From Acetobacteraceae bacterium (GTDB lineage: Bacteria > Pseudomonadota > Alphaproteobacteria > Acetobacterales > Acetobacteraceae): 64,000 nucleotides of DNA. The notes beneath the pieces are model-generated. The model had not been told where the DNA came from. It was given only the letters and a program-made list of their open reading frames with translations, and searched no databases. Below, piece by piece: positions 10,210 to 52,717 of the stretch (the first letter of the stretch is position 1; every line of letters begins with the position of its first letter). Location of the stretch: contig JANXMB010000048.1 of assembly GCA_025354865.1 (NCBI GenBank), positions 1 through 64,000 of the forward strand, in the 5' to 3' direction. Position numbers and translations under genes: made by a program.

Positions 10210-10283
10210 TCGGCAGCGGCAGCGTTCGTGCCGGATTTCACACGCGCGGCGCGCGTTTTTCCTGTCGGTGCCGAGGCACAAAT

Positions 10284-47113: not shown

Positions 47114-48829
47114 ATGTCCTACACGAACCTAACAATAATATTGTGCCTGGTCTTGGACGGACTGGGCATACTTCTGCTCGACTTCGATTTCGATTCCACA
47201 TCCCGGCCATCCGCCGCATGGGTGTCTCTATCGACATGCGCGGCGTGCGCCATCGGGGGAACGCGCCATGAAACCGAGCAGCTCTTCCAATACGGCCGAC
47301 AGATGCACGACGCCGGGCAGTTGGCGGATGCCGAACGGGTGTTTCGCGACGTGCTCGCGGCGGATGCCGAGCATGCCGAGAGTTGGCATCGCCTGGGCGT
47401 CATCGCGTTGCAAACCGGGCGGATGCAGGAGGCACTGGCATCGTTCGATCGGGCCATCCGCCGCAAACGCCTGAACGCGATTTTCCACGTCCATCGCGCG
47501 CATGCTTTGTCGGCGCTAGGTCGTTCCTTGGATGCACTGGAATCGGCGCGCCAGGCATTGCGCCTGAAACCGCAAATGCCGGAGGCGTTGTTCGTCCTCG
47601 GCCACGCCCTCTACGACCTCAATCGCCCGATCGAGGCAGTTGCTGCCTATCGGGAGGCGTTGCGCCGCGATCCAAGGCTGCCCGATCTCCGCAATGCGCT
47701 GGCGCTCGCTTTATGGGATACGAACCGCCATGCCGAGGCGATCGCAATGCTGCGGGAGGTCGCGCGCCACGATCCCGCCGATCTCGCAACCCGGCAAAAC
47801 CTTGTCGGGATGTTGAAAGACACCGGCATGCTGACCGAGGCCGAGACCCTGGCCCGCGAAATCCTGCTCCGGCGGCCGGACGATGCGGTTAGTCATTTCA
47901 ATCTCGCACTGACCTTGTTTCTGGCGGAGCGGTTCGACGAGGCCTGGCCGGAATGGGCCTGGCGGTTCCAGGCAGACCCGGCGATCACGATGCCCTACGG
48001 CGACCCGGAATGGCGCGGGGAGCCGTCGTCCGGCCGCACCCTGCTGGTGCATGCGGAACAGGGCATGGGCGATGCGATCCAGTTCTGCCGCTACCTCGAT
48101 CGCATACCGGCGGGCACCGAGGTCGTGCTGCAAGTGCATCGCCCCCTGGTGCGTCTGCTGTCGCATTGCCCGAATGTTGCCCGCACCATCGCCCTGGACG
48201 ACCCCACCCCGCACTACGACCTGCGGGTACCGATCATGAGCCTGCCGCTGGCGCTGGGCGCCACCCATTCGGACGATGGAACGATGGCGAGCCCCTATAT
48301 CGTCCCCTCCCTCGATCGCGCCGAACACTGGCGCGCGCTGCTGCCGGATGGGCGGCAACCCCGCGTGGGCCTGGTCTGGGCCGGCAATCCCGAACGCACC
48401 CGTATGGACCGTCGCCGGTCGGTGCCGCTGGCGCAGTTTGCGCCGCTGTTGGCGGTGCCCGGGGTATCGTTCGTGTCCCTGCAGAAGGGCAACGCGGCGA
48501 GGGACCTGACCACCGTGCCGTTCGGGGGCGCGATCCACGATCCGACCGAGGCCCTGCACGACTTCGCCGATACCGCCGCCCTGATCGCGGAACTGGATCT
48601 GGTGATCGCGTCGGATACGGCGGTGGCCCATCTGGCCGGGGCGATGGGCAAGCCGATCTGGCTGCTGAACCGGGCCGATACCTGCTGGCGCTGGGGCCTC
48701 GGGCGGACCGACAGTGTCTGGTATCCGGCCATGCGTCAGTTCCGACAGGATACGGCGGGGGATTGGTCCAGCGCGATCGGGCGGGCCGCCGAGGCGTTGC
48801 CGGGCTTCGTGGCAGGGCACGCGGGTTGA
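47114..48829 (+). CDS. TPR protein with glycosyltransferase-like C-terminal domain (paralogue of 25110)
   Basis: This 571-residue protein has six to seven TPRs (such as AESWHRLGVIALQTGRMQEA) and the same C-terminal nucleotide-sugar-binding-type domain as the protein at 25110: LLVHAEQGMGDAIQFCRYL, RVGLVWAGN and LVIASDTAVAHLAGAMGKPIWLL. The ATG at 47114 has GGGGAGG six bases before it and gives a hydrophobic N-terminal segment (TIILCLVLDGLGILLL) before the first repeat; the first TPR begins near residue 54. If the segment is real it would anchor the protein in the inner membrane. Function is unknown; polysaccharide or protein glycosylation is possible. Confidence 0.78.
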   Translation: MSYTNLTIILCLVLDGLGILLLDFDFDSTSRPSAAWVSLSTCAACAIGGTRHETEQLFQYGRQMHDAGQLADAERVFRDVLAADAEHAESWHRLGVIALQTGRMQEALASFDRAIRRKRLNAIFHVHRAHALSALGRSLDALESARQALRLKPQMPEALFVLGHALYDLNRPIEAVAAYREALRRDPRLPDLRNALALALWDTNRHAEAIAMLREVARHDPADLATRQNLVGMLKDTGMLTEAETLAREILLRRPDDAVSHFNLALTLFLAERFDEAWPEWAWRFQADPAITMPYGDPEWRGEPSSGRTLLVHAEQGMGDAIQFCRYLDRIPAGTEVVLQVHRPLVRLLSHCPNVARTIALDDPTPHYDLRVPIMSLPLALGATHSDDGTMASPYIVPSLDRAEHWRALLPDGRQPRVGLVWAGNPERTRMDRRRSVPLAQFAPLLAVPGVSFVSLQKGNAARDLTTVPFGGAIHDPTEALHDFADTAALIAELDLVIASDTAVAHLAGAMGKPIWLLNRADTCWRWGLGRTDSVWYPAMRQFRQDTAGDWSSAIGRAAEALPGFVAGHAG

Positions 48830-48876: not shown

Positions 48877-48891
48877 TTAACCATGCGTTAA
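48877..48891. promoter_or_regulatory. CtrA-type binding site upstream of the pseudokinase gene
   Basis: TTAA (48877-48880), seven bases, TTAA (48888-48891) fits the full CtrA consensus TTAA-N7-TTAA. It lies 43 bases before the start codon, in an otherwise GC-rich gap of 105 bases, where CtrA would overlap or sit at a promoter. Confidence 0.6.
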
Positions 48892-48934
48892 CCTTTTCGC
48901 GTCACACTGCGCGTGTCTTTCCAGCGCGGCCCCG

Positions 48935-50905
48935 ATGCAAACCCAACCCGATTCGTCCCACGCCCCGATCGCCGGGCGCTTCACCGTCGATATCGCGCGT
49001 CCCCTCCAAGGGGCCGGAGGCGGTCTGCCCGCTTTTGCTGCCACCGACCTGCGAACCGGGCGCCGCGACCTGATGGCCGTTGCCGTCGGGCGGTCCGAAC
49101 CGGCGCGGGCCAACGTCCTTCGCGATTTGAACGACCCAATCGACAACCTGCTCGTCCCGCTCGGCGTCGGGTCCGGTCCCGGTGCCGACGGCGCGCAAGC
49201 CTATTACGTCGTTTGCCCCGCACCCGCCGGCACCGCGCTCGGCCTTGCCACCAAGCCCTGGACCGAGGCAGCGTTGATCGCCCAGGTCCTGCGTCCGGCC
49301 GCCATGGTCCTGCGGCAGTTGGAAACGCGACGCCTCACCCATCGCGCCATCAGGCCGAACAATGTCTTCCTGCCGGAGGCCGGGCAGCCGGTCGTTTTCG
49401 GATGCGCCTGGGCCGCGCCGCCAGCCCTGCACCAACCGCCCGCGTACGAGCCATTTTACAGCCTGATGTGCCACCCGGCGGCGCGCGGCGACGGGTCGAT
49501 CGCCGACGATGTTTATGCCCTGGGATGCCTGCTGATCGCGCTGGCGACCGGCACTGCGCCGCTCGCGGGGCTCGACGATGCGGCCGTGTTGCGGCGGAAA
49601 CTCGAACTCGGCAGCTTCGTCGTGATCGTCGGCGATGCCCGCCTGCCGTCGATGATCGCCGACCTCGCGCGCGGCATGTTGGCCGAGGATCCGGACCACC
49701 GGCCAACCCCGTCGATGCTGCTCGATCCCGCATCGGCCCGAGGCCGACGAGTCGCCGCCCGCCCGCCCCGCCGCGCCCCGCGCCCGCTATCGGTCGGGGC
49801 AACCACGGCCTGGGATGCGCGCACGCTGGCCTATGCGATCGGCAAGGAACCAGAGGACGGCGTGCGGGCGATCCGGGATGGCAGCGTTGGGAACTGGCTC
49901 CGCCGAGGCTTGGGCGATGCCGCCCTTTGCGCGCGCGCCGACGAGTTGGTGCGGCAGCGCGCGAGCGAAACCCAGGATGATGAGGCGCGCGCCGATGCTG
50001 TGCTCGCGATGCGCATCATTGCCACACTGGAACCGCTCGCGCCCTTGTATTGGCGCGGGGTGGCGCTTTGGCCGGACGGGCTGGGGCCCGCGCTGGCGGC
50101 CGCACGTGCCGGGGATTCCGTCCTGCAGGAGCGACTCGCGGATGTGATCGCGATCGAGGCCCCGAGCACCTGGGCGGCTGTGCGCGCCGAACGATGCGAT
50201 GCCCTGGCGCTGCGGACGACAGCTCGGGCAAATCAGGCGTTGCTGCGCATTCGCCCGCCGGCGGGCGGGATCGCCCGGCTGACCTACACGCTCAATCCAT
50301 TGCTGCCTTGCGGCGGCGCAATCGGGGCCGCGCATTGGGTCACGAGCCTCGATGCGCTCGCACCCGCCATGGAAACCACGATGCAGGGCGGCGGGCATCC
50401 ATTCGATTCCGACCTCGTGTCGTTCCTGGTCGCCCGCGTGTCCCGCGATCTGGAGATGGAGGTCAACGCCCTCGCCGCGCATCACGGTGCGGCCTTCCCG
50501 ATCATGCCCTGGCTGCGCATTCTGGCCCAGCTCCAGGTCCGATATGCGCCCCACCCCATGCCCGCCTTAGCCAATTGGGCCATCGCCCAATCGGAACCGG
50601 CCACCGCCGAATGGCAAAACCGCGACCGGCGCTCAGCTTTGCGGGAAACGCTGAAACATTTTGCGGCCGAGGGCAATTTCGCCCCGATCATCGCCGCCCT
50701 GGACGATCCGCTCGGGCTGGAACGCGACGCCGCCGGAGCGACCACTGCCCATCGCGCGCTGGCCCGGATCGACGCCGAATTGTCCGGCATCGCGCTCGGC
50801 GGGCCCGCACGCGCCGCTGTCGCCGCCCGATACGGGCAGGAAACGACAGCCGCCCTCGGCCTTACTGCGCTGGCAATTGCAATTCTGGCGACGGCGATCG
50901 GCTGA
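48935..50905 (+). CDS. Protein-kinase-like pseudokinase with C-terminal membrane segment
   Basis: This 656-residue protein has an N-terminal kinase fold (about residues 15-250) and a long unassigned C-terminal part that ends in a membrane helix (TTAALGLTALAIAILATA). The catalytic loop reads HRAIRPNN (136-143) where active kinases have HRDLKPxN: the Asp is Ala. The DFG site is VFG (154-156), and no Lys is visible in the LMAVAVGR strand that should carry the VAIK Lys. The Asn143 and the SIADDVYALGCLLIALATG helix are kept. It cannot catalyse by the usual route and is likely a sensor or scaffold. The next membrane-protein gene overlaps its stop. Confidence 0.75.
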   Translation: MQTQPDSSHAPIAGRFTVDIARPLQGAGGGLPAFAATDLRTGRRDLMAVAVGRSEPARANVLRDLNDPIDNLLVPLGVGSGPGADGAQAYYVVCPAPAGTALGLATKPWTEAALIAQVLRPAAMVLRQLETRRLTHRAIRPNNVFLPEAGQPVVFGCAWAAPPALHQPPAYEPFYSLMCHPAARGDGSIADDVYALGCLLIALATGTAPLAGLDDAAVLRRKLELGSFVVIVGDARLPSMIADLARGMLAEDPDHRPTPSMLLDPASARGRRVAARPPRRAPRPLSVGATTAWDARTLAYAIGKEPEDGVRAIRDGSVGNWLRRGLGDAALCARADELVRQRASETQDDEARADAVLAMRIIATLEPLAPLYWRGVALWPDGLGPALAAARAGDSVLQERLADVIAIEAPSTWAAVRAERCDALALRTTARANQALLRIRPPAGGIARLTYTLNPLLPCGGAIGAAHWVTSLDALAPAMETTMQGGGHPFDSDLVSFLVARVSRDLEMEVNALAAHHGAAFPIMPWLRILAQLQVRYAPHPMPALANWAIAQSEPATAEWQNRDRRSALRETLKHFAAEGNFAPIIAALDDPLGLERDAAGATTAHRALARIDAELSGIALGGPARAAVAARYGQETTAALGLTALAIAILATAIG

Positions 50906-51348
50906 TGGCACGCGAGGCATCGCCCCCGAAGGAAAAGGGCCGCAGCATCGTTTGGATACAGGGGCTGGCGTGCGGCGCCTGCATCGCGATCGCCCCGGCC
51001 GCTTCGACGTTGCTCGCGGTGTTACTGGCGCCAGCGCTTGCGATCCTGCTTGTCGATCGCGCGCCGGGACGGGCGGTGGCCCGAGCGGTATTGCTGTGCG
51101 GGGCGGCGCCCTGCGTCGGGCCGTTGGTGACGTTATGGCAATCCGGTCGCGGCGCGGGTTTCGCGCTGATCGCCGATCCCTCGGTGCTAGGGCCAGCCTG
51201 GGCAGCTTGTGCTGGCGGTTGGTTGTTGTCGCAACTGCTGCCGATCGGCATTCGCGGCATTCTGGAGGCCACGAGCCTCGCGCAGGCCGCCCGCTTGCGC
51301 ACCGAGCGGGAGAGATTGGTGAAAGACTGGGGGCTGGAGGAAAACTGA
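50905..51348 (+). CDS. Small membrane protein, co-translated with the pseudokinase
   Basis: This 147-residue protein has three to four hydrophobic segments (GLACGACIAIAPAASTLLAVLLAPALAILL, AVLLCGAAPCVGPLVTLW, WAACAGGWLLSQLLPIGI) and a charged C-terminal helix (ARLRTERERLVKDWGLEE). The start is the TGATG overlap with the pseudokinase stop, which implies a fixed ratio and a joint function at the inner membrane. No family recognised. It converges with rpoH. Confidence 0.72.
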   Translation: MAREASPPKEKGRSIVWIQGLACGACIAIAPAASTLLAVLLAPALAILLVDRAPGRAVARAVLLCGAAPCVGPLVTLWQSGRGAGFALIADPSVLGPAWAACAGGWLLSQLLPIGIRGILEATSLAQAARLRTERERLVKDWGLEEN

Positions 51349-51398
51349 TACCGGTTGGCCTCGGGGCCGACGCCATCGGCCCCGAGGTGTGTCGGTAT
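51348..51398. terminator. Strong hairpin between the membrane-protein gene and rpoH
   Basis: CCTCGGGGCCGA (51359-51370) pairs perfectly with TCGGCCCCGAGG (51376-51387), with an outer ATACCG/CGGTAT (51348-51353, 51393-51398). There is no T-tract, so it may be a transcript-end structure or processing site for the plus-strand operon. Confidence 0.6.
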
Positions 51399-51440
51399 TA
51401 GATCGCGATCCGTTCGCTCTCGCTCACGTATCGCGATCTA
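51399..51440. repeat. 42-base palindromic intergenic repeat, copy 2
   Basis: Arms TAGATCGCGAT and ATCGCGATCTA are identical to those at 10284-10325, with a slightly different loop and the same ATTGTTTGTT-like tail. It lies in the converging gap before the rpoH stop. Confidence 0.75.
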
Positions 51441-51499
51441 ACCTATTGTTTGTTCGCGCGATTCAGACCTCCGGTGATTCCACCTCCGGTCATCGCGCT

Positions 51500-52396
51500 C
51501 TACGCCCCCGCAGCCGAGGGGGCCGCGCCGCGTCGTTCGGCGACCTGCTGCTTCATCGCTTTCTGCAACCGATCGAAGGCCCGAACCTCGATCTGGCGAA
51601 CCCGCTCACGGGAGATGTTGTATTCCCGGGACAGGTCTTCCAGCGTCGTGGGATTATCCTTCAACCGCCGCTCGACCAGGATATGGCGCTCGCGATCATT
51701 CAATGTTTTCAGTGCATTGGACAGCAAAGCCGAGCGGCCGGTGCGCTCTTCCCGCTCGGCCAGGACGGTTTCCTGGCTATCGGCGTCGTCCACCAGCCAA
51801 TCCTGCCACTCGCCTTCGCCTTCCTGGCGCAGCGGGGCATTCAGGCTGTTGTCCGGCGCGGCGAGGCGACGGTTCATGCTGACCACCTCCTGTTCCTGCA
51901 CATCCAACAACCGAGCGATTTTGGTCACATGCTCGGGTTTCAGATCGCCATCTTCGAGGGCCTGCATCTGCCCTTTCAAACGACGCAGATTGAAGAACAG
52001 CTTTTTCTGGGCTGCGGTCGTGCCCATTTTCACCAGCGACCAGGAGTGCAAAATATACTCCTGAATGGCGGCCCTGATCCACCACATGGCATAGGTCGCC
52101 AAACGGAAGCCGCGATCCGGATCGAAGCGCTTGACCGCCTGCATCATGCCGACATTGCCCTCCCCGATCAGTTCGCCGATCGGCAGACCGTAGCCGCGAT
52201 AGCCCATCGCGATCTTGGCAACCAACCGAAGATGGGATGTGACCAGCTTGTGCGCGGCGTCGGTATCTTCGACATCGCGCCAGCGCAACGCGAGCCTCAG
52301 TTCCTCCTCGGGTGTGAGCATGGGGAACTTGCGAATATCTTGCAGGTACCGCGACAGGTTACCGTCGGGTCCGATGTTCATGACAGCAGCAGCCAT
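51500..52396 (-). CDS. rpoH: Heat-shock RNA polymerase sigma factor RpoH (sigma-32)
   Basis: This 298-residue sigma-32 directs RNA polymerase to heat-shock promoters. Region 2 has GNVGMMQAVKRFDPDRGFRL and TYAMWWIRAAIQEYIL; the RpoH box QKKLFFNLRRLKGQM follows; region 4 ends with TLEDLSREYNISRERVRQIEVRAF. These are exactly the sigma-32 signatures. AGGAG six bases before the ATG at 52396 fixes the start; a longer frame to 52561 is untranslated leader. A near-consensus promoter lies 216 bases upstream and has a palindromic spacer, so the leader is long and could hold a thermometer structure. Alphaproteobacteria often have two rpoH genes. Confidence 0.97.
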   Translation of the reverse strand: MAAAVMNIGPDGNLSRYLQDIRKFPMLTPEEELRLALRWRDVEDTDAAHKLVTSHLRLVAKIAMGYRGYGLPIGELIGEGNVGMMQAVKRFDPDRGFRLATYAMWWIRAAIQEYILHSWSLVKMGTTAAQKKLFFNLRRLKGQMQALEDGDLKPEHVTKIARLLDVQEQEVVSMNRRLAAPDNSLNAPLRQEGEGEWQDWLVDDADSQETVLAEREERTGRSALLSNALKTLNDRERHILVERRLKDNPTTLEDLSREYNISRERVRQIEVRAFDRLQKAMKQQVAERRGAAPSAAGA

Positions 52397-52612
52397 CTGA
52401 CACTCCTTACCTCTGCCGTTCCGTCCTGCCCTTGGGCGTGATTGCCCGTTGTGGCGCAAGGAGCGAATTGGCTTGTGACGTTCGCCAGCCAGTGCTGACC
52501 AGTCCGGATGAGGGAGGGGAAACACGGTCCCGGAAACCCACCCCAGATTTGGCAGCGGCACTTCCGGACTTCCCCATCGCCAGGGTTCATCCGACCCTCA
52601 GCGATGAGCCTG

Positions 52613-52641
52613 GGTATACAGGACCGATTTGGTCCTGTCAA
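52613..52641 (-). promoter_or_regulatory. rpoH promoter with palindromic spacer
   Basis: On the reverse strand TTGACA (52641-52636) and TATACC (52618-52613) are 17 bases apart, an almost perfect vegetative promoter. The spacer itself is the perfect inverted repeat CAGGACC-AAATC-GGTCCTG (52637-52619), an operator-like site in the middle of the promoter. A repressor bound here would block RNA polymerase. Confidence 0.7.
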
Positions 52642-52717
52642 GATTACTAACTGGTTAACTCGCCGTCATGTATATTATAAGTTGTTCAATTGCGTCAATA
52701 TACTGTTTTAAGTTGTA

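Follow-up and report, generated by a model that had tools for sequence, protein, structure and literature searches.

The DNA analysed here, a window of 64,000 nucleotides from a bacterium of the Acetobacteraceae, carries a two-gene unit that probably provides the flagellum with a non-catalytic scaffold under the control of CtrA, formed by a tail-anchored pseudokinase and its membrane partner. The DNA itself offers a CtrA-type box, its promoter layout, their conservation, the loss of the catalytic residues of the kinase fold, the linkage of the two genes and their co-occurrence with flagellar genes; a flagellar link is the best reading of the genome comparisons, and the exact flagellar step at which the unit would act is proposed on the same grounds.

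The pseudokinase and its membrane partner

The first gene (48935..50905, forward strand) encodes a protein of 656 residues, made of a kinase fold (about residues 5-270, 48947..49744, forward strand; model pLDDT 92), a conserved all-helical domain (about residues 284-620, 49784..50794, forward strand; model pLDDT 94.6) and a C-terminal hydrophobic helix (residues 636-656, 50840..50902, forward strand; hydropathy peak at 637-638), which is predicted to be a tail anchor, a hydrophobic C-terminus being found in 75 of 76 homologues. Compared with solved structures, the kinase-fold model gave Z values of 20 to WNK3 and 19 to PknA, and its motifs are substituted, with MAVAV at the VAIK region, THRAIR for HRD and VFGCAW for DFG. 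The first-pass annotation had described a kinase fold without the VAIK Lys, the HRD Asp and the DFG Asp, and both alignment and model bear this out; the same residues are lost in all the intact homologues aligned, 29 from the taxonomic family and 76 from the class, so that the losses on which that description depended are conserved. The combination of a protein kinase fold with this family-wide loss supports the view of the product as a putative non-catalytic pseudokinase. Since the losses are found in 76 of 76 homologues and 99 of the 289 sampled alphaproteobacterial genomes carry the family, we are dealing with an ancient pseudokinase family and not with a decayed gene; a decayed kinase specific to this genome is ruled out, the losses being common to the whole family.

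Database searches do not place the protein. Pfam gave just a sub-threshold Pkinase match and NCBIfam just kinase models far below cut-off, none of which is sufficient for a curated family assignment; Azospirillum records label the gene serine/threonine protein kinase. When the helical domain was predicted alone, Foldseek returned no match to solved structures at E < 0.001, and the best Z given by VIA against solved structures was 5.3. As modelled, the domain appears to have no assignable relative among solved structures, no match being confident, and a relative may have been missed.

Among known systems, the nearest working analogue is EssB/YukC (review PMC12599244), a transmembrane pseudokinase with a structural role in type VII secretion; it too is membrane-anchored with all three catalytic motifs degraded. 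The likeness is one of analogy and not of membership: EssB/YukC belongs to Firmicutes and to type VII secretion, whereas the present protein is alphaproteobacterial, carries a helical domain before its C-terminal tail anchor, has a separate polytopic partner and is found next to purA-rpoH or flagellar genes, not in a type VII secretion locus. The GLW pseudokinases (PMC12599244) are also proteobacterial with a transmembrane segment C-terminal to the kinase fold, but there GLW replaces HRD, while here HR is mostly kept (THR[A/G]IR) and the poly-leucine beta3 motif is absent; GLW in place of HRD, as defined in PMC12599244, was seen in none of the aligned homologues (29 + 76). The DYD pseudokinases have a DYD motif and carry Arg where VAIK has its Lys (PMC12599244), and neither a conserved Arg nor DYD was found in the 76 class homologues. 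The motif definitions of that review (PMC12599244) for the GLW and DYD groups do not fit. The best bacterial matches of the kinase fold, by sequence and by structure, are the Ser/Thr kinases of the PknA/PknB type. These are catalytic, with a membrane segment in the middle of the protein or an outer domain after it, unlike the present protein, which has lost the catalytic residues and has its anchor at the very C-terminus.

The second gene (50905..51348, forward strand) encodes a membrane protein of 147 residues with three to four predicted transmembrane segments, for which a family search gave nothing above cut-off. The overlap of its start with the pseudokinase stop, already pointed out in the first reading, amounts to one base (TGATG), and at 71 of the 76 loci, those where the unit sits elsewhere included, a membrane open reading frame begins no more than 100 nt from the pseudokinase stop. 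Further downstream, where the pseudokinase unit and rpoH converge, an inverted repeat (TTAGATCGCGAT...ATCGCGATCTAA, window 51398-51441), one arm of which recurs at 10283, is possibly a two-way terminator.

The CtrA-type box and its conservation

A CtrA-type box, TTAA-N7-TTAA, is found at 48877..48891 on the forward strand (TTAACCATGCGTTAA; full stretch TTAACCATGCGTTAACC), followed 11 nt 3' of its second TTAA by a -10-like hexamer, CACACT (48903..48908, forward strand). The gap of 43 bases between the box and the ATG of the pseudokinase gene (48935) was re-read together with the position of the box, and both are exactly as first described. In the own genome, which comprises 4.76 Mb in 190 contigs, the counts of TTAA-Nk-TTAA for k from 4 to 10 are 0, 2, 2, 45, 0, 0 and 1. 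The genome-wide enrichment proposed as a check is therefore present, and the contrast between 45 copies at spacer 7 and 0-2 at each of the spacers 4-6 and 8-10 excludes chance for the motif as a class. Judged from the rate at neighbouring spacers, a single chance match or so would be expected among the 45. Most of these boxes lie immediately upstream of genes, and an xAnnnT hexamer is found at +11 from the second TTAA in 17 of the 35 that are oriented towards genes (27 with all boxes in both orientations, each other offset reaching at most 10). The pseudokinase box has its CACACT at exactly +11, the position common to other boxes of the genome, and a chance match at this site is rejected on spacer counts and promoter layout together.

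The genome encodes ctrA (G000:C114:25314-25988), with an approximate identity of 57% to a Caulobacter CtrA query, so that an absence of the regulator does not stand against the proposal. Full CtrA sites of activated promoters lie near -35 (PMC6180460), and the present site shares with the CtrA-activated flagellar promoters of Caulobacter and Rhodobacter (PMC6180460) the TTAA-N7-TTAA near -35, with motility genes downstream. It has the exact 7-base spacer and a predicted activation placement near -35 with a -10-like element; unlike those promoters, its target is a pseudokinase unit that the literature searched describes neither as CtrA-controlled nor as flagellar. On these features, 48877-48891 is very likely a CtrA binding site.

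The genes behind the other boxes of this genome include four chemoreceptors, fliF, fliR, fliM, flgI, a CheZ-like gene and an EAL protein, as well as glycosyltransferases and several unrelated genes. According to a review, CtrA controls flagellar genes in every order studied, among them Rhodospirillales (PMC8116508). Other boxes (L062, L065, L045, L076) are near thiC, 2-oxoglutarate dehydrogenase E1, CoA-transferase and Mu-like prophage genes, and two near-identical CtrA-box promoter regions are found on different contigs of one assembly (L049 position 245 and L078 position 1501), the former preceding a UPF0102 gene; this pair is a duplication or a product of mixed strains.

The box is kept in relatives with the same 7-base spacer and the same -10, as the first reading would need. 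A perfect box with the same -10 precedes the pseudokinase gene of the closest relatives, L198 (74% protein identity), L199 (67%) and L267 (66%), and also of L205; of two same-genus genomes, G176, probably the same record as L267, has a perfect box and G099 has TTAA-N7-TCAACC before the pseudokinase. A recognisable box with the same spacer and -10 is present in most of the taxonomic family. For 43 homologues of the taxonomic family, the summed best score is 314 at spacer 7 versus 249-281 at other spacers and 237 +/- 5 for shuffled upstream regions; scores of at least 7/10 are reached at N7 by 35 of the 43 (3-22 at other spacers), and of at least 8/10 by 17 (0-6 at other spacers), a value of 8/10 being attained in 1.9% of 311 upstream regions of other genes of the same loci. 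In a sample of 72 upstream regions, which partly overlaps that of the 43 homologues, 19 score 9/10 at spacer 7, as opposed to 0-3 at other spacers. A -10-like hexamer accompanies 61 of 68 distinct homologue boxes, 35 at +11 and 25 at +12, with at most three at any other offset, and distances to the ATG in homologues are approximate because start codons were picked by rule. Outside the taxonomic family, 12 of 42 homologues score at least 8/10 at N7 (1-8 at other spacers) and a perfect box is rare, so that these data argue only weakly for conservation of the box across the class. In two carriers the best ctrA matches are partial with in-frame stops (G062:C1:2264463-2264945 and G109:C41:1881-2423); the pseudokinase of G062 has a weaker box (L018, 7/10), and this genome may be a natural test of the link between CtrA and the unit.

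Distribution, neighbourhood and flagellar genes

Homologues were found in 70 of the 150 taxonomic-family genomes sampled. Named carriers are Rhodopila, Acidisphaera, Limobrevibacterium and Azospirillum. Across the class, with genes called by simple composition rules, the usual order is hisZ-purA-pseudokinase-membrane protein-rpoH-rluD. Two to four pseudokinase copies occur in G369, G374, G376, G418, G476, G513 and G516, in tandem in G374 and G516. In the window, a TPR and glycosyltransferase-9 gene (47114-48829) is found between purA and the pseudokinase gene; its layout resembles that of FlmG-type flagellin glycosyltransferases, and in L100 there is a relative close to the unit. The rpoH gene (51500-52561, minus strand) has a CtrA-like ATGA-N7-TTAACC upstream (about 52562-52670), and that of the same-genus G099 (L113 near 6754) has TTAA-N7-TTAA, adjoining TTGACA, so that the gene for the heat-shock sigma factor might be a target of CtrA as well.

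The unit occurs almost only where flagella are encoded, as for a flagellar accessory. With p values computed on genome counts without tree correction, flgI is present in 93 of 99 carriers versus 75 of 190 non-carriers in the class sample (p 2.8e-21), in 66 of 70 versus 51 of 80 in the taxonomic-family sample (p 3.6e-6) and in 50 of 54 versus 34 of 84 when one genome is taken per GTDB family (p 1.5e-10). Nine of 10 flgI-negative carriers have flhA, G436 (98% complete) being the single carrier without either gene. Conversely, 75 of the 168 flgI-positive genomes of the class sample are without the unit; flagella therefore do not require it, and the unit is accessory. The genes listed by a motility screen in Phaeobacter, which may or may not carry the family, do not include it.

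Most carriers have the unit at the purA-rpoH site, and three lineages have it in a flagellar cluster. In G009 (L120) it follows fliI-fliJ, with ctrA divergent; in G272 (L278) it follows flgI, a rod-binding (flgJ-like) gene, a weak FlgN match, flgK and an flgL-like gene, the last without a Pfam match; in G374 (L187) two units stand in tandem ahead of flhA, a motA-type gene and a sigma54 activator. The first-pass annotation had proposed that a cell-cycle or development regulator drives a non-catalytic kinase-like membrane unit. The CtrA-type promoter in front of such a unit stands, given the spacing, the layout, the conservation and the presence of ctrA; as to its role, motility is indicated rather than cell cycle or development, because of the CtrA boxes at chemotaxis and flagellar genes, the flagellar co-occurrence and the loci within flagellar clusters.

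These three loci also bear on whether the unit serves not the flagellar apparatus itself but another surface process linked to CtrA (for example chemotaxis signalling, flagellin glycosylation or c-di-GMP control). That chemoreceptors, the CheZ-like gene, the EAL protein and several glycosyltransferases follow CtrA boxes of this genome is in its favour, but the embedded units have structural, export and motor genes (fliI-fliJ, flgK-flgL, flhA-motA) around them, not chemotaxis genes, and we consider this explanation unlikely. Somewhat less probable is a housekeeping or stress module of the purA-rpoH neighbourhood, responding to purine state or heat shock, the flagellar link then being a by-product of genome size and ancestry. 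It would account for the gene order kept across the class and for the CtrA-like box of rpoH in G099; however, partner and CtrA-like element persist in taxonomic-family loci without adjacent purA or rpoH, several streamlined genomes (1.4-2 Mb) that retain flagella retain the unit, and in the order sample all 47 carriers have flgI.

Catalysis, mechanism and significance

That the protein is active by a non-canonical route, like WNK, with its moved lysine, or other atypical kinases, is improbable: WNK kinases are the closest solved folds and the family alignments show no variation at the catalytic-loop Asn (N143), but no homologue has the HRD or the DFG aspartate, and the beta2-beta3 region shows no conserved lysine. 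Least of all do we favour a chance match or the site of another regulator at 48877-48891, for which the restriction of the perfect box to this genome and near relatives might speak, against the spacer control, the -10 layout and the conservation.

According to the preferred reading, that of a CtrA-controlled flagellar scaffold, phosphorylated CtrA would bind TTAA-N7-TTAA overlapping the -35 region and activate the two-gene operon, so that its expression would go with that of the other motility genes in the CtrA regulon. The first product would be cytoplasmic, pseudokinase and helical domain being held at the inner membrane by the C-terminal helix, and the second a small polytopic membrane protein that is its near-constant partner. 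Together they may form a complex acting as a non-catalytic inner-membrane scaffold for flagellar assembly or motor control. A broader proposal, for which we see even chances, is that of an unnamed flagellar component spread through the class, in which the tail-anchored pseudokinase, its helical domain of unmatched fold and the dedicated partner would form a scaffold on the export or motor base, under CtrA control since early in Alphaproteobacteria.

No paper on this pseudokinase family or its function was found in the literature searched. If the proposal is true, a dead kinase would be a flagellar part in much of a bacterial class, not described in that literature, its gene being hidden by the automatic name serine/threonine protein kinase. 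Azospirillum, which is genetically tractable, offers a direct test, and a positive outcome would strengthen the view of motility as the old core of CtrA control.
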